This document shows positions 6,179 through 57,200 of a DNA stretch of 64,000 nucleotides, piece by piece. Numbering within the stretch: the first letter of the stretch is position 1; each line of letters starts with the position of its first letter. Made by a program: the position numbers and the translations under genes. Under the pieces are notes generated by a model. That model ran no database searches, was not told the origin of the DNA, and worked only from the letters and a program-made list of their open reading frames with translations. This DNA comes from Polychytrium aggregatum (lineage: Eukaryota; Chytridiomycota; Chytridiomycetes; Polychytriales): the NCBI RefSeq assembly GCF_025602895.1, contig NW_026516203.1:1178001-1242000 (forward strand), read 5' to 3'.

Positions 6179-9027
6179 ATGTCCATCGAAGAAGCCGTTA
6201 CCGAATCTGCCCCCATCTTCCCTCCCCCCGAGCGGTTCCAGCAGGGCGAGGTCCCCGTTCCCCACATCAACTCTCTCGAGCAGTACAAGGAGCTGCACGA
6301 GGAGTCTGTCAAGAACCCGACTGCTTTCTGGGGCAGGGTACGTTCTCCACATCGCCATCGCCATCGCCATCGCCATCGCCATCGCCATCGCCATCGCCAT
6401 CGCCATCGCCATCGCCAACACCCAACCCGGCGTCTGCCAATCGGTGGCGTCCGTGTCGGTGTCTTGGCTTCTGGTCCTGGCACATTGTCTGACACTTTGT
6501 CCTTTGACTTTGTACCCACACCCTTTCTCGGGCACGGCTTTCCTCTGCAGGTCGCCAAGGAGCTCCTGCACTGGTACCGACCCTTCACCCAGGTCAACTA
6601 CGGGTAAGTCTCATGTTTGGATCGTGCGTGTGCTGTCAAGCGATTTGTTGCGTTTGTCGTTGCACTCGTCATTGCGCTCGTGTCTGCTTTTCCTTCCTCC
6701 TCTCCATCGGCTTCGTTGTGCTCTGCACGGAATAGTCCTTTGGGCAGCCCGCCACACCATCATGCTTATCTACTTTGTCCTTTGTTTCCAGCGGTTTCGT
6801 CGATGGCGATGTCCAGTGGTTCAGCGATGGCCAGCTCAACGTTGCCTACAACTGCGTTGATCGCCACGCTTTCGCCAACCCCGACAAGGTTGGTTGCGCC
6901 TGACGGCCCGCTTTTCTGCTCTGTTTTCTGCTTTCCTGCTTTCCTGCTTTCCTGCTTTCCTGCTTCTACCTGGCTCTCGGCAGAATCTGCGTGGGCTGAT
7001 CTGTTCAGCTTTTCGAGCTGCCGATTTCTCCTTCTGGCCGTGGCTATACCGTAGCCATGCTAACATTTTCCGTTTCTCCTCCCCTGCGTCGTTCGATAGG
7101 TCGCCATCATCTGGGAGTCTGACGAGCCCGGACAGGGTGAGAAGATCACCTACCGCCAGCTCTACCAGGAGGTCGGCAAGTTCGCCAACGTCTTGAAGAA
7201 GTACAAGGTCCGCAAGGGCGACACCGTCTGCATCTATATGCCCATGGTCCCCGAGGCTGCCTATGCCATGCTGGCCTGTGCCCGTATCGGCGCTGTCCAC
7301 TCTGTCGTCTTTGCCGGCTTCTCTGCCGATGCCCTCCGCGACCGTATCCAGGACGCTGGATGCAAGATCCTCGTCACTGCTGACCAGGGCAAGCGTGGTG
7401 GCAAGTCCATCGGCCTCAAGGTCATCGCCGACCAGGCTCTGGCCGACTGTCCCTCCATCGAGGTATGTACCTCTTTCTGCGGTATCCTTCGTACCCTCCC
7501 TCCCCCTCAACCCGCTGCGCGCGGCTGCTTCCCCCCACACAGTCCCCGGCGAGTTCGTGGACAATGTACCCAGTCTTTTCCCCTTCCATTCACCGGCTTG
7601 TCTCTGAGCACCGCACTCCACCGTCCTCCTCCAAAAACAATCACTGACCTGCTGTCTCCGCCCTCTGCGGTCTCCAGAAAGTCATCGTCTACCAGCGTAC
7701 CGGTGATATCTCGGTGCCCTTCAGCTCCCCTCGCGATGTCTGGTGGCACGAGGAGGTCGACAACCAGTCGCCCGTCTGCCCCGCCGAGACCATGAACGCC
7801 GAGGATCCCCTCTTTATGCTCTACACCTCGGGCTCCACTGGCAAGCCCAAGGGTGTCGTCCACACCACCGCCGGCTACCTGCTCGGCGCCACCGCCACCG
7901 TCAAGTACATCTTTGACCTCCACGAGAACGACCGCTTCGGCTGCATGGCCGATGTCGGATGGATCACTGGCCACTCGTACATTGTCTACGGCCCCCTCTC
8001 CAACGGCATCACCACCGTCATCTTCGAGTCCATCCCCACCTACCCCACCCCCAGCCGCTACTGGCAGCTCATTGACGACCACCAGCTCACCCAGTTCTAC
8101 ACCGCCCCCACCGCCATCCGCGCCCTCCGCCGCCTTGGCGACGAGCACGTCGAGCCCTACAAGCTGGACTCGCTCCGTGTCCTCGGCTCTGTCGGTGAGC
8201 CCATCAACCCTGAGGCCTGGCTGTGGTACCACAAGGTCATTGGCCGCGAGCGCTGCGCCATCGTCGACACCTACTGGCAGACCGAGACCGGCTCCATCAT
8301 CGTCACTCCCCTGCCCGGTGCCATCGCCACCAAGCCCGGCTCTGCCACCCTTCCCTTTTTTGGCATCGACCTGGCCGTCCTCGATCCCACCACTGGCCAG
8401 GAGCTCCTCGGCAACGACGTCACCGGTGTCCTGGCCATCCGCCAGCCCTTCCCCTCGATTGCCCGCACTGTCTACGACAACCACATCCGCTACCTTGATA
8501 CCTACATGAAGCCCTATCACAAGTACTACTTCACCGGCGACGGTGTGACCCGCGATGCCGACGGCTACTACTGGATCCGCGGCCGTGTCGACGACGTCAT
8601 CAACGTCTCGGGCCACCGTCTCTCGACCGCCGAAATCGAGTCTGCCCTCATTCTGCACCCCGCCTGCGCCGAGGCTGCCGTCGTTGGCATCAATGACGAC
8701 GTCACCGGCCAGGCCATCGTCTGCTTCGCCTCGCTCAAGTCGCACCACGCCGACGAGACCGCCATCACCAAGGCCTTTGTTGCCCAGATCCGCACCCACA
8801 TCGGTCCCTTTGCCACCCCCAAGCGCATCGTCATCACCCCGGAGCTTCCCAAGACTCGCTCCGGCAAGATCATGCGCCGCATTCTGAGAAAGGTTGCTGG
8901 CCAGGAAGTCACCCTTGCCGATCTCGAGGACGAGGATGGTCTCCGCAACAAGCTTGGCGATCTGTCCACCCTGGCTGATCCCTCCATCGTCCCCACCCTC
9001 ATCAAGAAGGTTGCTGGACGCCAGTAA
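6179..9027 (+). CDS. ACS1: Acetyl-CoA synthetase (AMP-forming)
   Basis: Converts acetate, ATP and CoA to acetyl-CoA, AMP and pyrophosphate; cytosolic or nuclear in fungi. Five exons (6179-6337, 6551-6603, 6792-6888, 7100-7462, 7678-9027) join in phase to 673 residues, the usual ACS length. Seen: the N-terminal ACS domain ([13 protein letters not shown], residues about 60-73); the adenylation P-loop [11 protein letters not shown] (273-283); [25 protein letters not shown]; and the C-terminal [12 protein letters not shown], whose Lys621 corresponds to the catalytic, acetylation-regulated lysine of the family. The start context is GCCATGTCC. Intron 1 contains a perfect hexanucleotide repeat. Codon use is strongly C-ending, suggesting high expression. 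The symbol is by family; fungi may carry paralogs. Confidence 0.97.
6351..6416. repeat. (ATCGCC)11 in ACS intron 1
   Basis: Eleven perfect copies of ATCGCC begin 13 bp after the 5' splice site of intron 1. Confidence 0.95.
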
Positions 9028-17151: not shown

Positions 17152-17644
17152 TACCTGTTACAATCTTCCCCCCCCCTGCCGCCTGCTCGTTTCGCCGACA
17201 CTACGTGGGTTCGCTGTCGCCCTGGCAGAACATATCAAGTTTTATCATGTACATACAGCTCAGAGAAGAATAACAACCCCCCGGGACACCCTGTTTTCAT
17301 AGCTGGCTTGTTTTTTGGTATGGAAATACACACCCATCCATCATCCACAAGGGCCATTCACCTTGCTGAAGCAAGGCATGGGATACACCTCCAGTCTTCG
17401 TCGCTCGGGGTTCTCTGGGCATTTTGAGCAGCTTCCTCGCCAGGGTGTACTCGGCCATCAAGTCCAGCGCCCCCAGGCGCGCAGACCAATCGCTGTCCAT
17501 AGATAAGCCACTCGCTTTGGTCCGCTGCGAACAGTGCAATCGACAGGCGTCCCGTTGCTCCTTCTTGGAGCTGTATCGGAACCCTGGGGTTGAATGACAG
17601 CCGCCTCGTTGCCTTGTGGGTCCTGTCACCAACACTTTATTCAG
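17152..17644. other. Region between R3HCC1L-like gene and transposon
   Basis: About 490 bp, gene-free. It contains the CGGGACACCCTGTTTT repeat (17282-17450). Open frames on the reverse strand run into the Fanzor 3' end and look spurious. Confidence 0.5.
17282..17450 (+). repeat. Dispersed repeat, copy A
   Basis: Begins CGGGACACCCTGTTTT, then AAATACACACCCATCCATCA, TGAAGCAAGGCATGGGATAC and TTTTGAGCAGCTTCC. The same ordered landmarks recur, diverged, at 24131-24330 in the same orientation, each copy about 70-130 bp after a gene's stop codon. It does not encode anything recognisable. It may be a short non-autonomous element or a decayed copy of the Fanzor transposon end. Confidence 0.6.
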
Positions 17645-17657
17645 AAAAAACGGGACA
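17645..17657 (+). repeat. Left terminal inverted repeat
   Basis: AAAAAACGGGACA, identical to the complement of 21343-21355. Confidence 0.75.
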
Positions 17658-17729
17658 ATATAGCCGTTTCCATGAACATGTAGTATGTGCTGTGCTTGCG
17701 TCAAGCAAAGCCACAAGAAATAAAACAGA
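17658..17729 (-). ncRNA. Candidate Fanzor guide-RNA (omega RNA) scaffold zone
   Basis: In TnpB and Fanzor systems the guide scaffold overlaps the 3' end of the nuclease gene and reaches the element end. Here the interval between the Fanzor stop (17730) and the left inverted repeat is 72 bp, so the scaffold would span it and probably the last part of the coding region on the minus strand. This is placement by analogy; I have not identified a specific fold. Confidence 0.35.
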
Positions 17730-20102
17730 TCACTTTGGCAGCCTCCGAGTGAAGACCTCCGGTCGCTCTCCGGTCTCCACAATCGACCTGCATACTGTGA
17801 TCATGTTGCGCGCCGCATTGACGTCGCGATTCCACACTGTCCGGCAGCTGGGATTCTTGCAGCTCCTGACAAAGTGGGAATTCGCAACACTGGGCGCATC
17901 GAGTCCTTCCAACCGAACTGGCTCCAGGCACTTGGCGCACACCTGTGAGGTGTTGAACTCGTTCGTCGAGGCCACCTTGACGCTTCCATGATGGTGATTG
18001 GGACGGCGTCGGTGGTGCTCGAATTGCTCAAAGTACTGAGCAAACCGCTGCCTCCGAGGGCTGGATGCATAGCCCTTGCCCTGTCGCCATGACGCATTGC
18101 CAAAGGCGATCGCCACATCGGTCCGTATTGGGGCGTGCTTCAGGACGGCCTTGCACATCCTGTCGACGGCCACTTGGCGTCTCCTGTGGCCCGTGAAGCG
18201 ATGGTGACGGGCCTTCTTGCCAAGGTGGAAGTCGAGCTGCACTCGCAGCTCCGGTCGCAGGACATGGGTGAGATGGACCTTGAAAGCCTCCGAGGACGAC
18301 ACCTTGGGCGAGGGGGTGGTCGACATCCAGGTCTCGATGCTGAGTCGATACTTCATGATATTGTGCCACTTGGTGTTGGACGTATGGCCACACATGTGCT
18401 GGTAGTGGCCATTCGAGAATGAGACCACCTCGTCTTGGTGGCCCGGTGCTTGGATGACCGCCGTGAAGATGGAGCCGACTCCAGGATCGATGCCAATCCA
18501 AGTGGTGCGGTTGGGGTCTGGGTCGCCGATGTGGGCCTGGATACGCTGCTCGGCAGTCGGAGGAGGCTCGATGGTCTCGGTGTGATCGGTTCGAGGCACA
18601 AACTTGACGAGACCGATGGTGCATCCAATGCCATCGGTGCTGATCTCGTAGTTGAACAGCTTGTGATTGATATCCCGGTCACGGAAGAGGGAGCTACGCA
18701 GCTTGAAGCAACTGCGCCAGAGACGATCCTGGTTGTTGATGCCGTCCTCACCTTCTTCCTTGAGCATGTCCCAGGTGAGGCCAAGGCCCTTCTTTGGACC
18801 CAGGAGTTGCCAAAGAGCGACCGTGTCAATCTTGACATACTTGGCCGTGGCAGTGCATAGAGGAACTATCGTGCACACGGCCGGAGGAGTGTCGACGGCG
18901 AGCTGCTTGAGTGCCCACTTGAGCCTGGATGCCAGCTTGTTGATCTTGGACTTGGTGGTGCCGAGCTCAGACTTGGCCGTGGTGAACCTCTTGTCGTCGG
19001 AGGGAATGCCTTGGGTAGTGAGCTCGTCCAGCTTGGCCTGGCGCTGCAGCTCGGTGACTCGGAGGGCGGGCATGTCACAGTCGATCCACTTGTGGACATT
19101 GTCGACCATCTTGTCCCGGGCGAGGATTCTCACATGGTGTGAGAGGCGATGGAGGGCCCGGAAGCGGTCCTGGTCGTTGCTGTACCGAAACTCGTCCAGG
19201 ATGTGGCCAAAGTCTGGATAGAGGAACTCGAGATCGGCCTTGGGTGGAGTCTGCCCTGGTTTCTCGAAGAGCTCGAGACAGGCCTCGATGGCTTCGTGCT
19301 TATGCTTGTTGGCTGGGAAGACGGCAGCGCAGAAGCGGCGAAGGAGTCGCCAGTAGGCCAGGTCGAGGTGGGTGGTGCAGTTGGTGGCATAGGCATTGAC
19401 AGCCAGGGTGAGAAGCTGACTGCGAGCACCATCAGGCAGACGAGGGGCCGGAGGTAGGTCTGCGTGCCGAGTGGTCTGGTAGTCGCGAAAGGAAGCGACC
19501 AGATGCTCGTTGTATTTCTTGGTCTCCCTGGCCGTCGAGAGGGCATCGGCCTCGACAATCGTGAAGCATTGGCGGATGAATGCAGGGGTGGACTTGGAGA
19601 TGACGGGGATGGGAATATCCTGCTCGGTGCACTGGAGGATGTGCAGGTTGAGCAGCCTGGATGCCTCGAACTGGATCTGGGTCATGGCCTCGACGGTGGC
19701 CTGGATCTTGTCGCGGAGAGCGGGATTGAGACAACAGCCATCCATCGTCTGCTTGAAGCAGCTGAACTGAGGGGCGGATGACCTTCCATCCACGAGTGGG
19801 ACGACAGAGCTCTTGAGGGGCCGGTATTTGGGACATTTGCTGGTGTTGCAGCGTTCGTGATCGGTGCCATCGCACTGGCGACATCGCTTGCCGGTACTCG
19901 AGGAAGTAGATGGACCAGGCTCGGTGGGATCGACATCCATTGGATCTGCAGAAGCAGTGGTGGTGAGCGACGGAGCAACAGACGACCAAGCATGCGTGGG
20001 ATCAGAATACGAACCAGAGACAGGCTCCGACTGTGACTTGGCTTTCTTGGGCCTGGGTGGCCGAGGCTGGCCATCACCGGTACCCTTGCGCTTCGGAGGC
20101 AT
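17730..20102 (-). CDS. Fanzor RNA-guided nuclease (TnpB-like)
   Basis: 790 residues, intronless. Fanzors are eukaryotic relatives of IS200/IS605 TnpB and Cas12 that cut DNA using a transposon-derived guide RNA. Seen: a basic N-terminus with nuclear-localisation-like PPKRKG (2-7) and PKKAK (18-22); a Cys/His knuckle CRQCDGTDHERCNTSKC (74-90); a long helical middle; RuvC-I WIGIDPGVGS with Asp539; the segment AIAFGNASWRQG (665-676) where classical TnpB has its RuvC-II glutamate but no Glu here; NEFNTSQVCAKC (714-725) giving Glu715 beside the zinc ribbon (C722, C725, C748, C753); and RuvC-III WNRDVNAARN with Asp760. All residues expected of an active rearranged RuvC site are present. The Arg/Lys-rich stretch HHRFTGHRRRQ (633-643) could bind RNA or DNA. 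It lies downstream of the transposase in the same element. Confidence 0.93.
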   Translation of the reverse strand: MPPKRKGTGDGQPRPPRPKKAKSQSEPVSGSYSDPTHAWSSVAPSLTTTASADPMDVDPTEPGPSTSSSTGKRCRQCDGTDHERCNTSKCPKYRPLKSSVVPLVDGRSSAPQFSCFKQTMDGCCLNPALRDKIQATVEAMTQIQFEASRLLNLHILQCTEQDIPIPVISKSTPAFIRQCFTIVEADALSTARETKKYNEHLVASFRDYQTTRHADLPPAPRLPDGARSQLLTLAVNAYATNCTTHLDLAYWRLLRRFCAAVFPANKHKHEAIEACLELFEKPGQTPPKADLEFLYPDFGHILDEFRYSNDQDRFRALHRLSHHVRILARDKMVDNVHKWIDCDMPALRVTELQRQAKLDELTTQGIPSDDKRFTTAKSELGTTKSKINKLASRLKWALKQLAVDTPPAVCTIVPLCTATAKYVKIDTVALWQLLGPKKGLGLTWDMLKEEGEDGINNQDRLWRSCFKLRSSLFRDRDINHKLFNYEISTDGIGCTIGLVKFVPRTDHTETIEPPPTAEQRIQAHIGDPDPNRTTWIGIDPGVGSIFTAVIQAPGHQDEVVSFSNGHYQHMCGHTSNTKWHNIMKYRLSIETWMSTTPSPKVSSSEAFKVHLTHVLRPELRVQLDFHLGKKARHHRFTGHRRRQVAVDRMCKAVLKHAPIRTDVAIAFGNASWRQGKGYASSPRRQRFAQYFEQFEHHRRRPNHHHGSVKVASTNEFNTSQVCAKCLEPVRLEGLDAPSVANSHFVRSCKNPSCRTVWNRDVNAARNMITVCRSIVETGERPEVFTRRLPK

Positions 20103-20352
20103 GGGGGCAGAGGATGGTGAATGCCTGCCAGTGGTACTGGTCAGAGCAGAGACTTTTTTTTATCGTACAATAGCGCGATGATCAGATCAAGGCGAGATGA
20201 GGGAAGAAAGCAGCAGGACGAAGGTGTGGCATTTATACCCGAGAGCAGGAACCCGTCTTTGCGGGCTGGTTGGAAGCGACCCTGTTCAAAAATCGCCGAG
20301 AGGTTCAAGCCAGGGATGTGAACGCGAAAATGGCGGCTTGATTGGAGGGAAC
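20103..20352. promoter_or_regulatory. Spacer between transposase and Fanzor genes
   Basis: 250 bp. It likely holds the Fanzor promoter on the minus strand: a TTTATA-like run in transcript sense lies near 20230 (GGTATAAATGCCAC), about 130 bp upstream of the Fanzor ATG. A poly-T tract is at 20154-20161. The inference rests only on position and the TATA-like word. Confidence 0.4.
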
Positions 20353-21285
20353 TCAACCCCAGAAGCGCATCGCACGTTCAATCAGCCGTGGGAAGACATC
20401 TGGAAGCACCCTCCGCACGGCAGACTCAAACAGGGTCACCATCCCGACTCTGAGCCCCTCGGAGGCATTCAGCGCTGCTGCCTTCCTGTACTGATGCTTC
20501 ACAATCCCAAAGAAGTTCTCGATGGGATTGAAGTCGGGCGATGCAGGTGGGGTGAAGATCACTGACCATCCTCGGCGCTCGATGCAGTCCAGGACAGCCA
20601 TTGTCTTGTGCATGCTGACATTGTCCATCACAATCACAGAGTCGTCTGGGAAGCTCGCTCGCTCAAAGAACTCGACCATCGAGTGTGTCTTGAATGATGT
20701 GGGGATGTACATGCGATGCAGCACACCAGAGTGGTTGATGGCAAATGCAGCCGAGACAGACTTGTGTTTCATGTGATTGCGCTGGCGAAGCGGAGCACCC
20801 TTCGGCGAGTATCCGTAGAGAGGGAAAATGGATTTCCTGATCCCCGTCTCATCGACAAAAACGAATCGTCGTGGGTCAATGGAGCGGACCTGGTCCCTGA
20901 ACTGTGCCACTCGCTCATCCAGTCGCTTGGACTTGTAGAGGTGTGTTGCCCTCTTGTGAGAGAGACCTGCTCGCTGGATGGCAGTGTGGCAGAGTGAGAG
21001 TGATACTTTCCTCTGGAGGATGGACTCGAGCTTGCATCGCAACACAGGACCAGTCTGGAACGGGTCCTGTTCAATCAGGGTGCGAATGACTGGACATGCC
21101 TGCTCGAAGAAAGTGGATCTGCGAGCTGGGACCCGGGATGGGTCATCCAGCTTGCATCCTCGGTGCCATCGATGGATGGTGCTCTTGGATACACTGAATA
21201 TGGAGGCGACCTTACGCAGGCTATGGATGAGGGCGTAGCATCGCAATGCGGCGGTGCGAAAGTCGGATGTGTGGCGAATGGTCAT
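20353..21285 (-). CDS. Tc1/mariner (IS630-type) DD34E transposase
   Basis: 310 residues, intact. It catalyses cut-and-paste movement of the element. The N-terminal helix-turn-helix SLRKVASIFSVSKSTIHRWH (22-41) would bind the inverted repeats. The catalytic triad is visible: Asp145 in FVFVDETG, Asp221 in VIVMDNVSMHK and Glu256 in PDFNPIENFFG, with 34 residues between the last two (DD34E). The ATG at 21285 is 57 bp inside the right inverted repeat. No internal stop or frameshift is seen, so recent activity is plausible. Confidence 0.95.
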   Translation of the reverse strand: MTIRHTSDFRTAALRCYALIHSLRKVASIFSVSKSTIHRWHRGCKLDDPSRVPARRSTFFEQACPVIRTLIEQDPFQTGPVLRCKLESILQRKVSLSLCHTAIQRAGLSHKRATHLYKSKRLDERVAQFRDQVRSIDPRRFVFVDETGIRKSIFPLYGYSPKGAPLRQRNHMKHKSVSAAFAINHSGVLHRMYIPTSFKTHSMVEFFERASFPDDSVIVMDNVSMHKTMAVLDCIERRGWSVIFTPPASPDFNPIENFFGIVKHQYRKAAALNASEGLRVGMVTLFESAVRRVLPDVFPRLIERAMRFWG

Positions 21286-21342
21286 GGCCAGCGCGCGATA
21301 ACATTGGGTAACAAAATATTCGATGAATGGTCAAAAACCCGG

Positions 21343-21355
21343 TGTCCCGTTTTTT
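21343..21355 (-). repeat. Right terminal inverted repeat
   Basis: TGTCCCGTTTTTT, the exact complement of the left end at 17645-17657. TA overlaps its outer edge at 21355-21356. Confidence 0.75.
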
Positions 21356-21588
21356 ATTGGATTGCCTGTAAAGCCCACAGTTCTGTGTCGGGCCAAAACG
21401 GGAAGGTGGGTCGAGATAGCGGCCTGGCCACGGTTTTGCGCTTTTTTTCGCTGCCTGCGTTCTGGACCGAGCCAGGTTCGTTCGTCGCTCGCATTCCTGA
21501 TCAGCTCCCGGACGCAGACCCTCAAGTCCGCGCAGTCGCATCTCCTCATCTGTGACGCAAGTCTGAAGCTCGGTATCTGAATCGCGCA

Positions 21589-30416: not shown

Positions 30417-33400
30417 TTAGTCATCCAAAACAAGTTCCTCGGTCTCCTCGATGACCTCCTCGATCCACTCCTCGAGGTCTTCGGCATCATCGTCGTTTCG
30501 GACATCGGGGTCGAAGCCGTAGATTTCGATTCGTTTTCGGAGCTGCTTGCGGTACTCGTCCTGTCCACGGCGGCGGAAGGACTGCCAGTCATTCCACATG
30601 CGGATGCGGCGGTCGAGCAGGTCCCGGTTGACCTCGGTCTCCTGGGCCACGTCGTCCTTCTCAAAGTCCTTGGAGTAGCTCTTGAGATCCTTGCGGATGG
30701 CCTTCTGCTGCTCCTTGGACAGGAGCGTCGGAGGGCGCGGGCGCCAGAGGAGCTGCTTGAAGACAGGCATGTTCTGCTTGTTGAGCTGCTCGCCGGTGAA
30801 GCTCCAGATGACAAAGCCAGTGTCGACCTGGATTCTCCACCAAGAGACAGAGGTGGCGACGAAACGGCCGGTAGGATCCCACTCGACGTCGGTGCAGGCG
30901 TAGTGCTCGCCGTGGTTCATCATCACCAGATCCTCAACGTCCCAGAACTCAAGGTCGCCGTTGCCGAGCTTGATGCCAGCCAACACGCAGTATCGGCCCT
31001 TGGGAGACCAGTGGATCTGGTTGACACCCTTGCGCTCCATGGACTTGAGCAACTTGATGCTGGCAGTGGAGCCGGCGGTGATGGCAGTGTTACTCTTCTT
31101 GGCCGCAGCCTGGGCTTGGATGGTCTGCATCTCATAAAAGTGGGCCATGATCTTCTGACCCTCGGTGGAGAGGACAGCAAAGCGAGAACCATTGGGCTCC
31201 CAGTTGATGCTGGTGATGGATTCGTTCGGGTTGGAGATCTCAAGGACGTCGACAGGGATACCCTTTTCGGCCATGCGGAAGATTTCAAAGTTGGTGCTGG
31301 ACTGCTTCTTGGTCTTCATACGATCGACCTTGACGAGAAGATAGTCGCCCGACGACTGCCAGTGCATCTTGCACTGATTGAAGGAGCGGCGGAGAAACAG
31401 TCGGATGAGTGGGACAGAGTTCATGAAAGTGGTCGTGCTATATCCAGCAAGCTCAACGGTGCCTGAGCACATTCCATAGGCACAGCCCAGCCTTTGGACA
31501 GACTCTCTTCGAGCCAACGCATCAAACACCGAGACACACTTACATCAGTGACGTTGAACAAGTTCTTGGTGCGGAGAATCTCGCGGTTGGGGATGGACAT
31601 GACCGTGACACGAGCCGGGGTGTTGCCGCTCTCAGAGATCCAGAAGCTGATGATGTTCTGGTTCGGACACCAGGCAAAGCCCTGGAGGTTCTCGATCTTG
31701 ATGGACTTTTTGTCGAGCAGGCCCATGCCGGGGGTTTCGTAGATGGAGATCAGGCCTTGGACACCGGGGGTCATGCGGGCCAGGTACTTGTCGTCATGCG
31801 ACCACTTGAAGACCGGCCAGTCGATGCGGAAGGAGGAGCCGCCGGTCTGGGAGCGCTCGGCCGAGGCGACGCTGGCGGGGTCAACGGCAAAGGTTCGGAG
31901 TTGGAGGCCAGAAACGATATCCCAGACAATGATGTTCTGTGGGATACGGTTCGGGGATTATTGGCAAGGAGGGGGGGGAAGCGAGGGATTCGAAAGATGC
32001 ACCAAGGCAGCGAAACGGGCGAGGAGGGGAGAGAATAGAGCGGGAGATAGTCAGCATCGAGTCAAATGAGACATGCTGATCAACAGGCCAAAGTCGCCAT
32101 GCGCTCCACAGTAACGCTCATCAGTTTTCTGTTCTATGGTAATCACAAAGTACAAGAATCCACTCTGCTTCATACAAGTAGTATGTGAAAGAGCTCATCC
32201 CCTGAGCGACCGGTGGAGCCGCATCTACGCCTGTCGAGCGGGCCCAAACGGTCGAGGAGCGCCAGGGCAGCAACATCCAAGGGCACGCCGAATCAGAGGA
32301 AAGCGACGGCGACTTACGTGGAGCTCGCCGGTGGGGGTGGTGAAGGACTCATTGCTCCAGGTGACGAGATACTTCTCGTTGGGACTGAAGTCGATGAGCT
32401 TGACGTTTTGGTGGACGAATCGGATGATCTTGTTCCAGCTTGGGCCACCCCAGAGAACAATGCCCTGCTTGTGGAAGGTGGCCAGATAGTTGCCCTTGGG
32501 CGACCAGCTCAGATACATGTCGGACCAGTTCTGTGTGCGCGCGGAAGAGATTGGAGAAGGCAAATGGAGAGGGCGACGACAAGTCAGTGGCGCTAGCTCG
32601 GGGGCTCGGGTCGCGGTGACGAATTGGGCCGAGGGGACGGAGTATCGAAGGGCTGGGCGGACCAGAGTCGAGTCTGATTGATCGGCAGCAAGCCGAAATT
32701 TGGGCAACAGTCGGCCACAGCAACACCACTTACAGGACGGGAGTAGACGAGCTCGGGATCTTGCGACTTGTTGTTCCAGAAGATGCTGACTTCGTCGCCA
32801 CGCATAACGACCCACTGGTCGCGGGCACGAGGATCAGTGAGCCAGGACTTGAGATGCTCCTTCTCAACGTATTCGGCAGACTCCGGGGCCTGGAACTCGT
32901 CAGGAACCGAGCGGCAGGCTTCAATGTCATCGAGCTTGTTGACAGCGAGGATGTGGGTCTTGGTCATCTTGTGGCCATCGCCGTGCTTGACAGCGAGATC
33001 AGCCTGCTCGGGGGTTTCAAAATCAAGGAACATGTATCTGGATTGCAGGCATTGAGGGAATATCGGATGAGTCGGCGGGATAGATGGGTCGGGGCACTGC
33101 CGCGGCTGGCAGATCTTGGTCGGCGCGGGCCAGAGAGAGAGGGCAGGCCACTGACTCGGCAATACACAAAAGAAGCACACCCACGGATCCGCCAGATCGC
33201 GAGTACGAATGGCTGGATATCCGATGCGTAGAAGCGATAACTCCAGCCCAGGCTACGACCAACAGAGCCAGGATGGGCCGATCAGACCGGCTTTTGACGA
33301 GATCGGGCGGCAAGAGATGGTGGAGGTGGAGAAAGACCTACCCTTTGCTCTCGCCAGTTTCGGGATCCATGGGCATGAAGACGCCGCCATCCTTGACGGT

Positions 33401-34254: not shown

Positions 34255-36155
34255 ATGTCGCCCTTTGCCAACCTGCTCGATCAGTTCAAGGCCTACCGGG
34301 AAAAGATGCCCGCTCCCGTCAGCTTCGAGGCTTTGCACCGCGAGATCAAAGGTACCTGTCGCAGCCGCGCACGCGCAAGCACATCTCGATCGCTGTCGGG
34401 TCGGCCATGAGCAGTTCTCAGAACCGAGATGAGCCTCCGAGCTGCTGGTTGGACAGGCACCGGATCTCGGGCAGATCAGGCAGATCAGACCGATCAGGCC
34501 GATCGAGTGGGTCGAGTGATGGTCCGATACGACCATTTGCTACCGCCACCTCCCGCCTCGGCCACTCGATCGCTTAACGCGCCAGCCACGAGTCACTTAC
34601 CATTGGCATTCCGTCTCGGCTTGCCTCTTCCAGGTGTCCACCCAACGCTGCATCTGATTGACGGCGCCAAGTTCGAGCTGACCTCGATGCTCTCGCCCAA
34701 CTTTATGGTCTCCCACTCCTTCGCCTGGGGCAGCTCCAACCACCAGCAGCCTCCGTCCTACCACTTTGGTGCCGGATATCACACTGCCAAGGTAGGCCGA
34801 CGAGTTTTAGGGGATTGAGGCCAAGCGACCAACTGCGGATCTGCGGATCTGCTGTCGGATGCAGTTAGAGTGGCGGCAGCGGTGGTGGTGGTGACGCTCC
34901 ATGTCCTGGGCTGCGATACAACGTCTTGGCAATGTGCTTGCATCCGCAGTGACCATGGTCGCAGCAGTGCCGGGCCTGCTCTGTATCTCCCTGGCGGCTT
35001 GCTGATGCTTTACACAATCATACCCCGGTCTCGGCAGTACATGATGCACGGACAGGTCGACCATGACGGCAACCTCTCGGCCCGCGCCAACTACAACTGG
35101 ATCCCGGCTCCCACCCCTGTCCAGCCCACGGACCCCAACACCCCCCCTCCTCCGCCGCCGACCCCTCGCCATGGCTCCAGCTCCAAATTCCAGGGCCAGT
35201 TCTCGGGCCACCCCGAAAACAACATGTTCATGCTGGAGCACGAGTACCTCAACAACGACTTTACGATCAACGTCAGGGCCATCAACCCCAACCCAATCGC
35301 CAGCCCTGCGTCGTACGTCGCCAGCAACCCCCCGCCCAAGGGCAGGACCCACCCGTCGGCGGTCACGGGTATCTACTCAGTGTCGTACCTCCAGTCAGTC
35401 TCGAAATCGCTGTCGCTTGGTGGCGAGTTCACCCTGCAGCGCCTCACTGCCGACATGGACGAGCCCAGCACCACGCTCGCTCTCCGCTACGCACCTCCCG
35501 CCTCGGAGCTGCCTGCTCCCACCTCGCTCCCCCCTGGCATGCCCTCCCCCTATATGCCCATCAACCCCAACGACCCGACCCAGGTCTTCACCACGACCTT
35601 CAGCCCTTCAACAGGCATGCTGCACGCGTCTTACTGGCGAAGACTCAACCAGCGCCTCGAGGTTGCGGCCGAGACCCAGATGCTGATGACACCTGCGGGA
35701 GCTCGTGGCGAAGGCCGACGCGAGGGCATCGCCGCCGTTGGATTCAAGCTGGATACGGTGCACTCTACCATCCGTGGCATGTTTGACTCTCACGGCAAGG
35801 TTTCGGCGCACATTGAGGAGCGCATGGCTCCTGGATTGACGTTCCAGGTACGTTGGTGGAGCAAGCAACCCCGAGTGTGACCATTGATGCGGCGTGGATA
35901 GAGCTATGTGGTCGGCAGAGTCAATCCGACCTGGTGGGATGGACCGACGCCAAAGTCGCTGTAGATCCATCACCGTCTGCAAAGCTACTCAGGCCGTGCA
36001 GTCTCACGGATGGATATGGATGCTAACCACGATCCGTCTCCCTCTCTCACTACGTGCTGCTTCGCATGCACCGCCAGATCTCGGGTGAAATCGACTATGC
36101 CAAGGGTGCTGGTGGCGCCGGTCGTGTTGGTGTCGGATTCACCCTCGAGGCGTAA
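34255..36155 (+). CDS. TOM40: TOM40, mitochondrial import channel
   Basis: Beta-barrel pore of the outer-membrane translocase. Four exons (34255-34351, 34634-34791, 35038-35847, 36078-36155) join in phase to 380 residues. Seen: N-terminal helix NLLDQFKAYREKM; GVHPTLHLIDGAKFELTSML; SPNFMVSHSFAWGS; barrel strands such as MHGQVDHDGNLSARANYNW, SVSKSLSLGGEFTLQRL and MFDSHGKVSAHIEERMAPGL; and the terminal ISGEIDYAKGAGGAGRVGVG ending in FTLEA. A Pro-rich loop (about residues 115-130) and another PPGMP...NPND loop are longer than in yeast. The last exon is only 26 codons and carries the final beta-strand, the expected beta-signal position. Confidence 0.93.
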
Positions 36156-45232: not shown

Positions 45233-45661
45233 ACTGTCATTGGAAGGATCGAATAGGCGGGGCTCAAAGTTTGATTGTGAAGGAATCGTATTCTGTTAAA
45301 CTTGATCAACACGGCGATCCGAATTGATTCAACCTGCGCCCCGAGCCAGGGCCCGATGAGTGGAGAGAGGATCGATGAGCGCGAACCGGAGCCGGCGAGG
45401 GTGTGTCGAGGACAATGACAAGCGACGGCTTTGTGGAGGCCATGGCAGGAGAGGATGGACACTGGGTGTGCCCTGGTGTGCCCTGGGTGAGCACTGGGTG
45501 ATGCGGATGGACGAGATCAGAGACGAACCAAAGCACAAGGACAGGACAGCAGGACAGCAGGACAGGAACATTGGCGGCATGGAAACCCATGGCGAGCCGC
45601 CACAGAAGCGAGGGCGCAAAAAACAGAGAGGCGGACAAAAGTCCAAATGACAAAAGACAAG
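45233..45661. other. Intergenic between BUD22 and tRNA-Ser
   Basis: About 430 bp. Contains GGTGTGCCCTGG repeats at about 45467-45490 and AGGACAGCAGGACAGC at about 45540-45565. No gene is supported. Confidence 0.5.
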
Positions 45662-45742
45662 CGTCAGAAGCAGGATTCGAACCTGCGCGGGCGAGCCCAT
45701 TGCATTTCGAGTGCAACTCCTTAACCACTCGGACATCCTGAC
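45662..45742 (-). tRNA. tRNA-Ser (anticodon CGA)
   Basis: The minus strand folds as a class II tRNA. The acceptor GTCAGGA (from 45742) pairs with TTCTGAC at the 3' end, with discriminator G as usual for serine. The anticodon loop CTCGAAA sits between TTGCA and TGCAA, giving anticodon CGA (reads UCG). A long variable arm and T-arm GCAGGTTCGAATCCTGC follow. No intron. Confidence 0.95.
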
Positions 45743-54209: not shown

Positions 54210-57200
54210 ATGTCTGAGCGAGGCGCTCCCCCTCACGCCCCCACCCGCTCGGCCAGCGGCCACTCCCGGGTCCCTGACCGCTCTGCCAACAACGATCCCC
54301 GTCTGCGCTCTCCCGGAGCCTCCCAGCCCTCCAATGGCGGCTTCAACCCCGATGGCCGACGCCCTGCCGATCCCCCCAGAGGCCACCCTGCCCGCAAGCC
54401 CTCTGGAACAGACATGGCTCCTCTCATCAACCCAGAGCCCTCTATCTCGCCTCTGCCTCCCGCTGGGCGCTATGCCGGCCCCAGCCACTCGATGGACGCC
54501 GGTCCCAGCAAGATGGGCAACATGAACTCCCAGCCGTACTACGGCCAGGGCCAGAACCCCAACCCCTACCACGGCGGAAACAACTATTATCCCCCTCCTC
54601 CTCCCTCGATGAGCCAGGTCTCGATGCACCATGCCCCCGGTACCCTCACCCGCATGAAGACCACCAAGAAGCAGCTCCAGCTGACCCCAGAGGGCCACCT
54701 CGTCGTCGAGCTCCCGGTCCCCGATCGCTGCCTGCAGTACGGCAAGTACAAAACCGGCGACGAATTCACCCACATGCGATACACCGCCGTCACCTGTGAC
54801 CCGAACGAGTATCCCTCGCAGGGCTACCGTCTGCGCCAGCAGGAGAGCCGTCGCCAGACCGAGATCTTCACTGTCATCACCATGTAAGCGGCCGCCACAC
54901 TCTGTGTTTGAAACTTGAGTTTACCTAGTTAGCTTGGCTTGACCTGGGCTGGGCCGGGCTGGGCTGAGCCGGGCTGTTGGTTTCACCCTCATTGCGGCTT
55001 CACAATCATCGCGGCTTCGGATGACTTACGCCTCATCCCTTCAATTCGCAGGTACAACGAAGACGACGTTCTCTTCCTCAAGACAATGACCGCCATTCAG
55101 AAGAACATTGCCCATCTCTGCTCCCGCAGCCGCTCCTCGACTTGGGGCGAGGATGGCTGGAAGAAGGTCGTCGTCTGCATTGTCGCCGACGGACGCACAA
55201 AGTGCCATCCGCGTGTCCTCAGCACCCTTGGTGTCATGGGTGTCTATCAGGAGGGCCTGATGAAGGAGTCTGTCAACGGCAAAGCCGTCACGGCCCATCT
55301 GTTTGAGGTCACCACCCAGGTGGCTTTCGATCAGGAGGGCAGGCTCTGCGGTGCCGAGCAGGGCTTCGTCCCTGTCCAGATTCTCTTCTGCCTGAAGGAA
55401 AAGAACGCCAAGAAGGTGAGCGTCGTCCGTTGCGTGTGTGGGGTTGCGACCGGCCGAAAGGGAGCTGCTTGTCGGCTGCATCTCAACAGCACCAAGTGGA
55501 GCTCTTCGGCGCCGCTCTCTAGTCACACAATCTGTGCTAAAGCTGGCGCTCGACCCCACGCTCATCCTCGTGTCCACCTCACCGCTAGATCAACTCGCAC
55601 CGCTGGTTCTTCAACGCCTTTGGTACGCTCCTCAGACCCAACATCTGCATGCTCCTTGACGTGGGTACCAAGCCTACCGCCACCTCCATCTACCGGCTTT
55701 GGAAGGCTTTCGACCGCAACGAGTACGTCGGTGGTGCCTGCGGTGAAATCTACGCTGAGCTCGGCACCGGATGCGGCAAGCTCTTCAACCCTCTCGTCGC
55801 CGCCCAGAACTTTGAATACAAGATCAGCAACATCCTTGACAAGCCTCTCGAGTCCGTCTGCGGCTACATCTCTGTGCTGCCCGGTGCCTTCTCGGCCTAC
55901 CGCTACGTCGCCGTCATTGGTGCGCCGCTCGAGCAGTACTTCAAGGGCGAGTTCATGCACGGCGGCAGCGACATCTTTGCCGCCAACATGTACCTGGCTG
56001 AGGATCGTATTCTCTGCTTCGAGCTTGTCACCAAGAAGGGCCAGGCCTGGCTCCTCAAATATGTCTCCTCTGCCAAGGCCGAGACCGATGTCCCCGATGC
56101 CGTCCCCGAGTTCATCTCCCAGCGTCGCCGTTGGCTCAACGGCTCGTTCTTTGCCTCCGTCCACGCCCTGACCCACTGGCACTTGATCTTCCGCTCGGAC
56201 CACAACATCCTTCGCAAGATCCTCCTGTGTCTCGAATTCACGTACAACTTCATTTCCCTGATCTTCAGCTGGTTCGCCCTCGCAAACTTTTTCCTCGGCT
56301 TCTACTTTATCTCCAGTGGCCTTCTGAGCCCTCCTGCTGGCGTCAACGAGAGCGACTGGCCCCCGCAGGTCATTCTCGGCATCACCCTGAACCGCTCGTA
56401 CCTCTGGCTCGACGGTATCACCGAGCTCTACGTCGGTGCCATCGTGCTGATCTTCATCTCATCCCTCGGCAACCGCCCGCAAGGCTCAAAGTTCCTTTAC
56501 ACCTTCTCGATGGTTCTCTTTGCCATTGTCATGATCATCATGCTGGCCCTCGGTGGCTGGACCGTCTATGTGACCCTCGACAGCCAGAAGAGTGTCTTCC
56601 AGAACCTCGATGCCAAGGCCCTCTTCTACGCCGTCATCAACACCCCCTCCGTTCGCGACATTATCATCTCGCTGGCTTCGACATACGGTCTCTACACCGT
56701 GTGCTCGATCATGTATCTGGATCCCTGGCACATCCTGACTTCGATGCTGCAGTACATGCTCCTCCTGCCCTCGTTCATCAACATTCTGATGGTCTACGCC
56801 TGTAAGTAGCCAGTCGCTGTGCTGCGTATGCGGATGGCGCCCGGGCTTTCTCGTAGCGCATATGTGGTGCGCATCTTTCTCAAACACTCGCACTCTACCC
56901 GATCGCTGATCCATTCATGTCTCCCCCCCGTCACAGTCTGCAACCTCCACGACGTCTCCTGGGGTACCAAGGGTGACAACGTTGTCTCCGACCTCGGCTC
57001 CGTTACTGCCCAGAAGGGCAAGGATGGCAAGGAAGTGATTGAGATCGAAATCCCCAGCGACAAGGCCGAGATCAACGAGAACTACGAGCGCTTCTACCGC
57101 GAGATCAAGACCCCGCTTGTCGAGGAGAAGAAGGGCCGCGACAAGAAGACCAAACAGGAGGACTACTTCAAGTACTTCCGTACCCGTGTTGTCCTGCTGT

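Follow-up and report, generated by a model that had tools for sequence, protein, structure and literature searches.

What might a Fanzor, a TnpB-like and presumably RNA-guided nuclease, do for a transposon that also encodes its own transposase? The question is raised by a Tc1/mariner element in a 64,000-nucleotide stretch of the Polychytrium aggregatum genome (contig NW_026516203.1, positions 1,178,001 to 1,242,000; hereafter the window), one stretch in an assembly of 64.7 Mb and 418 contigs. Two genes lie within the element, the transposase nearer the left end and Fanzor nearer the right. We compared the element with its other copies in the genome and with described Fanzor systems, and consider it probable that it is an autonomous cut-and-paste transposon of Tc1/mariner (IS630) type in which a second gene codes for a Fanzor1-type RNA-guided nuclease that promotes the retention of its copies.

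An initial annotation had described two intact, co-oriented genes, one for a DD34E transposase and one for a Fanzor-type nuclease with RuvC-I, zinc ribbon and RuvC-III. Each proved to be a single open frame on the minus strand, with unchanged coordinates. The transposase scored above the cut-offs of both PF13358 (DDE_3; 84.8 bits, cut-off 28.6) and NF033545, the model of the IS630 family (122.8 bits, cut-off 100), and its catalytic triad of D145, D221 and E256, with 34 residues between D221 and E256, confirms the DD34E type. The 790-residue protein matched PF07282, the TnpB/Cas12f zinc-finger domain, with 33.9 bits (cut-off 26.3). Its RuvC-I residue D539 lies in a DPG motif that is invariant across 18 aligned intact copies, and an alternative RuvC-II glutamate, E715, six residues ahead of C722, is invariant in those copies and in 3 sibling sequences; a C4 zinc finger (C722, C725, C748, C753) follows and then R759 D760, with D760 as the RuvC-III residue. 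The DPG motif and alternative glutamate have been termed "molecular fingerprints" of Fanzors (PMC10711439). The Fanzor motif of 2013, D-X(125,275)-[TS][TS]-XX-C4 zinc finger-X(5,50)-RD (PMC3627910), is also present, formed by D539, T718 S719, C722-C753 and R759 D760. Because the DPG motif, alternative glutamate, zinc finger and RD dipeptide occur together with the PF07282 match, assignment of the protein as a candidate Fanzor-type nuclease of the TnpB/Fanzor superfamily is supported, and the proposal of such a nuclease on a Tc1/mariner element holds with the DD34E transposase, the terminal inverted repeats (TIRs) and the TA dinucleotides described below. Membership by profile search was borne out for the zinc-finger domain and not for TnpB proper: guided_TnpB (NF040570) gave 23.8 bits, under its cut-off of 100, and the NCBIfam TnpB models all stayed below their cut-offs. 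No distant relatives of the Fanzor were found in the viral contigs, prokaryote contigs or phages searched.

Comparison of copies placed the boundaries of the element at TTA followed by CAGGCAATCCAATAAAAAACGGGACA on the left (transposase) side and at TGTCCCGTTTTTTTCTGAATAAAGTG followed by TA on the right (Fanzor) side. The perfect 13-bp inverted repeat first taken for the ends, AAAAAACGGGACA at 17645..17657 and TGTCCCGTTTTTT at 21343..21355, does exist and is not due to chance, because the same ends bound further copies; it is the inner portion of an imperfect 26-bp TIR whose outer 12 bp differ between left and right, so that the true ends lie about 12 bp further out. TA was found at 36 of 37 distinct left junctions (two of the 36 belong to siblings, and the lone exception is a mis-set match) and at 34 of 36 distinct right junctions. 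Consistent with the mobile element that had been proposed, further copies with matching ends are plentiful. We listed 31 copies close to full length, that of the window among them, at 95 to 100% identity, and 7 partial ones. Across the genome there are 178 occurrences of the complete 26-bp left end with TA, a count that takes in haplotig duplicates, against 0 for a backwards-pattern control; the right end with TA has 220 matches (up to 1 mismatch), and 129 transposase matches were listed.

The two genes have been kept in working order in much of this family. Among the 57 Fanzor matches scored, 49 were free of in-frame stops, a share biased to intact copies as the best candidates alone were scored. 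We read 24 copies in full (L001 and L009-L031, picked as whole elements) and found the Fanzor frame of 790 codons intact in 18 and the 310-codon transposase frame in 15. The ratio of nonsynonymous to synonymous diversity (pN/pS) among them was 0.313 for Fanzor and 0.201 for transposase, in codon counts that skip stop codons and gapped codons. With most frames intact, these ratios indicate that both genes are under purifying selection and that selection keeps the family functional. The view that the element was recently mobile was not upheld. Mean pairwise identity was 96.4%, the closest non-allelic pair reached 97.3%, and no empty site was recovered at 14 insertion sites; the 24 copies thus show no sign of very recent transposition. 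Recency is hard to judge here, because shuffling between copies, to which we return, would blur it.

A second line of evidence is an asymmetry at the insertion sites. Of 34 distinct left junctions, 31 have T ahead of TA; 3 of the original 37 were dropped (the second match of L027, a mis-set TTC, and the siblings L060 and L087), and the set includes 4 ghosts or deleted copies (L063-L066). Genome-wide, the exact left end follows TTA in 172 of its 178 occurrences and another base before TA in 6. By comparison, T stands before TA in 12.8% of 2,650 cases in the window, both strands counted. The mirror base, A after TA, was seen at 6 of 34 right junctions (the 2 of 36 without TA omitted), giving no mirror signal, and the difference between the sides was significant (Fisher p 7e-10). 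In the genome-wide set, 40 of the 220 right-end matches were exact with A, the other 180 differing at that base or within the end. Position -4 at the left junctions tends to A/T (27 of 37, all rows). We ruled out that the T belongs to the element itself: on the left, T is followed by TA, on the right GTG meets TA without an extra base, and a few left junctions have A, G or C instead. In Spizellomyces punctatus, CA is conserved ahead of the left inverted repeat and the measured target-adjacent motif (TAM) of SpuFz1 is CATA (PMC10432273). On the strength of the one-sided T and this precedent, we predict TTA as the TAM of the present Fanzor.

Because copies and ghosts share the same ends, a one-sided preference of the transposase could also place T before TA. 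It is possible, although we think it rather unlikely, that TTA is set in this way, by a paired-end complex that tells left from right; Fanzor would then be an accidental or otherwise useful passenger whose TAM need not be TTA. All junctions counted, those of ghosts included, belong to ends that one transposase serves, and almost all have T; the differing outer halves of the TIRs could give such a complex its asymmetry. Target choice by Tc1/mariner transposases is, however, normally symmetric about TA, and the mirror base was not enriched on the right. The agreement in S. punctatus between the conserved CA on the left and the measured CATA also speaks for the nuclease. A Fanzor-free control for TTA was sought among the sibling elements L060-L063; all retain Fanzor ends, so the effects of transposase and Fanzor on TTA are inseparable there. 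The sibling matches were ranked by mismatch and hence skewed towards T, and none of them entered the TTA counts through this ranking.

Deleted copies point to a further functional part at the right end. The 310-bp ghosts (L063, L064, L066) consist of the first 97 bp and the last 214-215 bp of the element, and their internal junction has 50 matches in the genome (up to 2 mismatches). Because the stretch that they retain is much longer at the right end than at the left, the right end likely encodes a guide-RNA region. These ghosts are the main evidence for that region, with the pattern of synonymous variation in a supporting role. Of 20 windows along Fanzor, codons 721-760 had the lowest synonymous diversity (pS 0.006); it was 0.028 in codons 761-790 and 0.029 to 0.173 in the remaining 40-codon windows. 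Synonymous variants were present in 6 of 68 codons in 721-790 and in 177 of 699 before them (Fisher p 0.0015, with a boundary picked after viewing the profile). An Rfam search returned a lone sub-threshold chance match (Xist exon 4, 18.6 bits; gathering 100).

Further observations were made on the ghosts and the siblings. In the 310-bp ghosts L066 (102-413) and L064, the transposase start (MTIR) appears by eye to be fused in frame to the Fanzor C-terminus (RTVWNRD...), giving an open frame of 41 codons. A second set of Fanzor-derived ghosts, L060, L061, L062, L063 (3169-4133) and L070-L089, has TIRs of the type CAGTC[AT]ATCCAGAAA..AAACGGGACA and 53 to 59% amino-acid identity in the Fanzor C-terminus. 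In 16 of the 20 sequences L070-L089 the right flank starts with TAAGTAT (TAA being part of the selecting pattern), and the repeat may therefore reach further. Some 80 bp from the element in L020 and L030 (on contigs C99 and C402) is a Fanzor 3' fragment of 69% identity that has a right end of its own, so the element is nested in, or inserted beside, a sibling relic.

In the mechanism that we favor, the transposase would move the element between TA sites, as its TIRs, TA duplications and intact DD34E enzyme suggest. From the right end, a non-coding RNA that includes the last part of the Fanzor frame would read into the flank as in SpuFz1, and each copy would thereby carry a guide against its own insertion site. 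The Fanzor ribonucleoprotein would recognize TTA together with that flank, a combination expected only where the element is absent, such as a donor site after excision or a homologue without the insertion. Its cut would provoke repair from a filled copy, and the element would be kept or spread despite the loss inherent in cut-and-paste. Non-autonomous ghosts with both ends and the RNA region would use both proteins in trans. Its anatomy and copy number, the selection on both genes, the one-sided TTA, the ghosts and the low variation of the putative RNA region were observed in this genome; the RNA, the cleavage, the TAM and the role in copy retention we infer from work on SpuFz1 and TnpB. Table 1 gives the positions of the parts concerned.

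Table 1. Parts of the Tc1/mariner-Fanzor element in the window, with positions counted from the first letter of the window.
Feature	Position	Strand	Remarks
Whole Tc1/mariner-Fanzor element	17633..21368	minus	3,736 bp; boundaries from comparison with 23 further complete copies
Left-end TIR, CAGGCAATCCAATAAAAAACGGGACA	21343..21368	minus	exact left end after TA: 178 occurrences in the genome
Right-end TIR	17633..17657	minus	25 bp here; 26 bp (extra T) in most other copies read
Left junction TTA	21369..21371	minus	TA target duplication after T; predicted TAM
Transposase	20353..21285	minus	310 residues; DDE_3, DD34E, IS630/Tc1-mariner type; profiles and catalytic residues
Fanzor (TnpB-like) nuclease, candidate	17730..20102	minus	790 residues; PF07282 match and Fanzor fingerprint
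Putative omega-RNA (guide RNA scaffold) region	17633..17942	minus	last ~70 Fanzor codons and 3' non-coding end
Inner part retained by 310-bp ghosts	17633..17846	minus	within putative omega-RNA region
Predicted guide region of the window copy	17611..17632	minus	flank directly beyond right end; placed by position as in SpuFz1

Elsewhere in the window, around the element, lie a tRNA-Ser(CGA) (45661-45742) and frames matching chitin synthase (55649-56809), an AMP-binding enzyme (7714-9027), eIF2A (30417-31529) and a eukaryotic porin (34870-35880).

In addition to a possible transposase preference for TTA, several results weigh against the proposed mechanism. Similarity of the nuclease to a solved Fanzor, SpuFz1 (chain 8gkh), is limited to the last ~50 residues and is marginal (E 0.076 and 0.042). 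The window copy retains TA on the transposase side and reads TT at 17631..17632 instead of TA on the Fanzor side, its right junction being one of those without TA. Low synonymous variation is not confined to the 3' end of Fanzor: codons 41-80 are also low (pS 0.029), windows of 70 codons starting at codons 2-6 carry almost as few synonymous variants (0.103, against 0.088), and windows of 40 codons starting at 16-22 hold 2 such variants, the same as those starting at 721-725. As the gene start is likewise poor in them, we use the synonymous signal as supporting evidence only. The predicted fold of the right end was not clearly better than those of shuffled sequences (z -1.36; 21 of 200 shuffles as good), and a consensus fold with siblings was weak (-6.26 kcal/mol; both sides changed in 5 of 21 pairs). 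Neither fold was used as evidence.

Nor did a search for empty sites bear out homing into empty alleles. When the joined flanks (60+60 bp) of 14 sites were searched for in the genome, none of the 14 gave a contiguous match, with 40 of 51 candidates scored; the empty sites that the initial annotation had looked to for support were thus not found. At 9 of the 14 sites the flanks had a second genomic place, none contiguous across the insertion point. The same search recovered 26 of 28 known flank places, missing the left flanks of L016 and L018, though the latter is also present in L028. We considered taking the lack of empty sites as a trace of homing and dropped the idea. Two pairs of same-site copies have flanks that diverge by 0.1 to 0.2%, compared with 3.6% divergence within the family, and the insertions may therefore simply predate the haplotypes.

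The copies themselves turned out to be mosaics. Beyond 20 to 50 bp, variants among the 24 copies are in linkage equilibrium (r2 0.043-0.050, compared with ~1/23 by chance). The four-gamete test was failed by 61 of 105 pairs of linked variant clusters, each made up of 2 to 3 neighboring variants common to 3 to 10 copies; since whole clusters fail the test with each other, recurrent mutation was ruled out as the source. Three pairs of copies at the same site were compared directly. L009 and L010 differ at 40 of 3,739 interior sites and 3 of 3,000 flank sites, and L013 and L017 at 131 interior sites and 4 of 1,986 flank sites, flank identity being 99.6 to 99.9% in these two pairs; L020 and L030 differ at 120 interior sites, with flanks 99.2 and 95.6% identical. 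As random copy pairs average 133.8 differing sites, the interiors differ like those of random copies in two of the three pairs, and in L009/L010 by ten times the flank divergence. Most of the differing variants are also present in other copies (28 of 40, 99 of 131 and 99 of 120, respectively), similar to the share of 0.80 for random pairs. At 5 of the 14 sites examined above (L011, L014, L019, L021, L023), just one flank was found at another place, in a search that missed 2 of 28 known flanks.

Individual sites showed further irregularities. L018 and L028 have one flank common to two contigs, the other flank not being found there. L014 combines the left flank of an element on contig C81 with the right flank of one on C334, which would fit recombination at the element or a misjoin there. 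The two flanks of the L024 site lie 32 kb apart in C14 (C14:63151 and C14:95200), where the allele seems to hold a far larger insert.

The simple biological explanation of this mosaicism is gene conversion between copies; an artefact of repeat consensus is also possible. A stronger form of the latter, in which the copies of an ageing, relic family seem more intact than they really are since the assembly consensus mixes repeat copies, appears improbable to us. The loss of linkage within 20 to 50 bp may be an effect of a long-read consensus step, no near-identical non-allelic pair exists among the 24, and the sibling ghost family (20 copies) likewise loses linkage beyond 50 bp (r2 0.049 to 0.096; chance ~0.053). 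By contrast, 317 singleton variants survive, variants in clusters of 2 to 3 neighboring bases stay together, and pN/pS is well under 1. In addition, linkage is retained over ~370 bp in a long terminal repeat (LTR) control, albeit a small one with 12 copies, 500 bp and 7 variable sites, of which 6 have at least 2 carriers, in nested carrier sets. LTR retrotransposons are themselves numerous in this genome: two groups with many near-identical copies form two score classes of 89 and 56 among 150 integrase matches, and their longest open frames have ~1361 and 1498 residues.

Gene conversion could also be tied to the nuclease. One might imagine an RNA-guided, self-repairing population, in which excised or empty sites with TTA and guide would be cut and refilled from copies elsewhere, and elements would recombine like a sexual population. 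Such a scheme would explain the interior divergence at shared sites (in one pair with flanks 99.8% identical), linkage equilibrium beyond 50 bp and flanks shared on one side; we hold it to be a long shot. It is similarly doubtful that Fanzor is a competent nuclease serving regulation or defence against other elements, through ghost guides in trans, rather than retention of its own element: the 220 right-end and 50 ghost-junction matches could supply many guides, yet 18 of the 24 copies keep the Fanzor frame and its catalytic residues inside the mobile element (copies chosen as whole elements; stand-alone Fanzor genes were not looked for, and the protein may have additional roles).

The retention model can be set beside systems already described. 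Fanzor1 in Mariner elements, with and without a transposase, was reported in 2013 (Bao and Jurka, PMC3627910). PUl-1, PUl-4 and PGv-1 from that work resemble the present family in having a Mariner transposase and Fanzor1 between TIRs with TA duplications, and some of their relatives retain Fanzor only. PGv-1 is single-copy and codes for a third protein that contains a GIY-YIG nuclease domain, whereas the present family has two genes and very high copy number, with abundant ghosts and most of the frames read intact. Cutting of DNA by SpuFz1 was shown in 2023 (Saito et al., PMC10432273). SPu-1, the SpuFz1 element of S. punctatus, shares with ours TA insertions, a right-end guide RNA (putative here), conserved bases before the left TA and ghosts that keep the RNA end; the two nucleases are also similar in a C-terminal WNRD...RP-VF-R-P pattern. 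Four differences stand out: 1) SPu-1 is ~2.1 kb with no transposase found within its inverted repeats, whereas the present element carries one; 2) the SpuFz1 TAM is CATA, compared with the TTA predicted here; 3) the 75-nt omega-RNA scaffold of SPu-1 lies between stop codon and end, whereas the low-variation region here reaches ~70 codons into the frame; and 4) SPu-1 has 19 full-length Fz copies, fewer than the present family. GtFz1 of Guillardia theta is alike in two respects, as its TAM, TTAAN, begins with the TTA predicted here and its omega-RNA overlaps the coding end (17 residues), as the putative region does here (PMC10432273). TnpB of IS200/IS605 and IS607 elements is alike in its RuvC/zinc-finger core, right-end guide RNA and left-junction TAM (see also PMC10711439). 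The present protein differs from it in having the DPG motif and alternative glutamate, a DDE transposase as partner instead of TnpA, and scores below the cut-offs of TnpB models. In the open-licence PMC literature on Fanzor, mariner/Tc1, and chytrid and fungal genomes, no title or abstract among those listed was recognizable as the present family. The family is therefore new as such and unusual in copy number and completeness, while Fanzor1-bearing mariner elements were already known.

What Fanzors do for their elements is an open question, and the SpuFz1 paper leaves it open whether they help other elements in trans (PMC10432273). With transposase and Fanzor both intact, and with ghosts and a conserved putative guide-RNA end beside them in one genome, this high-copy family makes the question testable. 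It also offers a candidate RNA-guided nuclease with a concrete TAM prediction, TTA, drawn from insertion sites alone. If the mosaicism proves to be biological, RNA-guided cutting would be linked to gene conversion among transposon copies.

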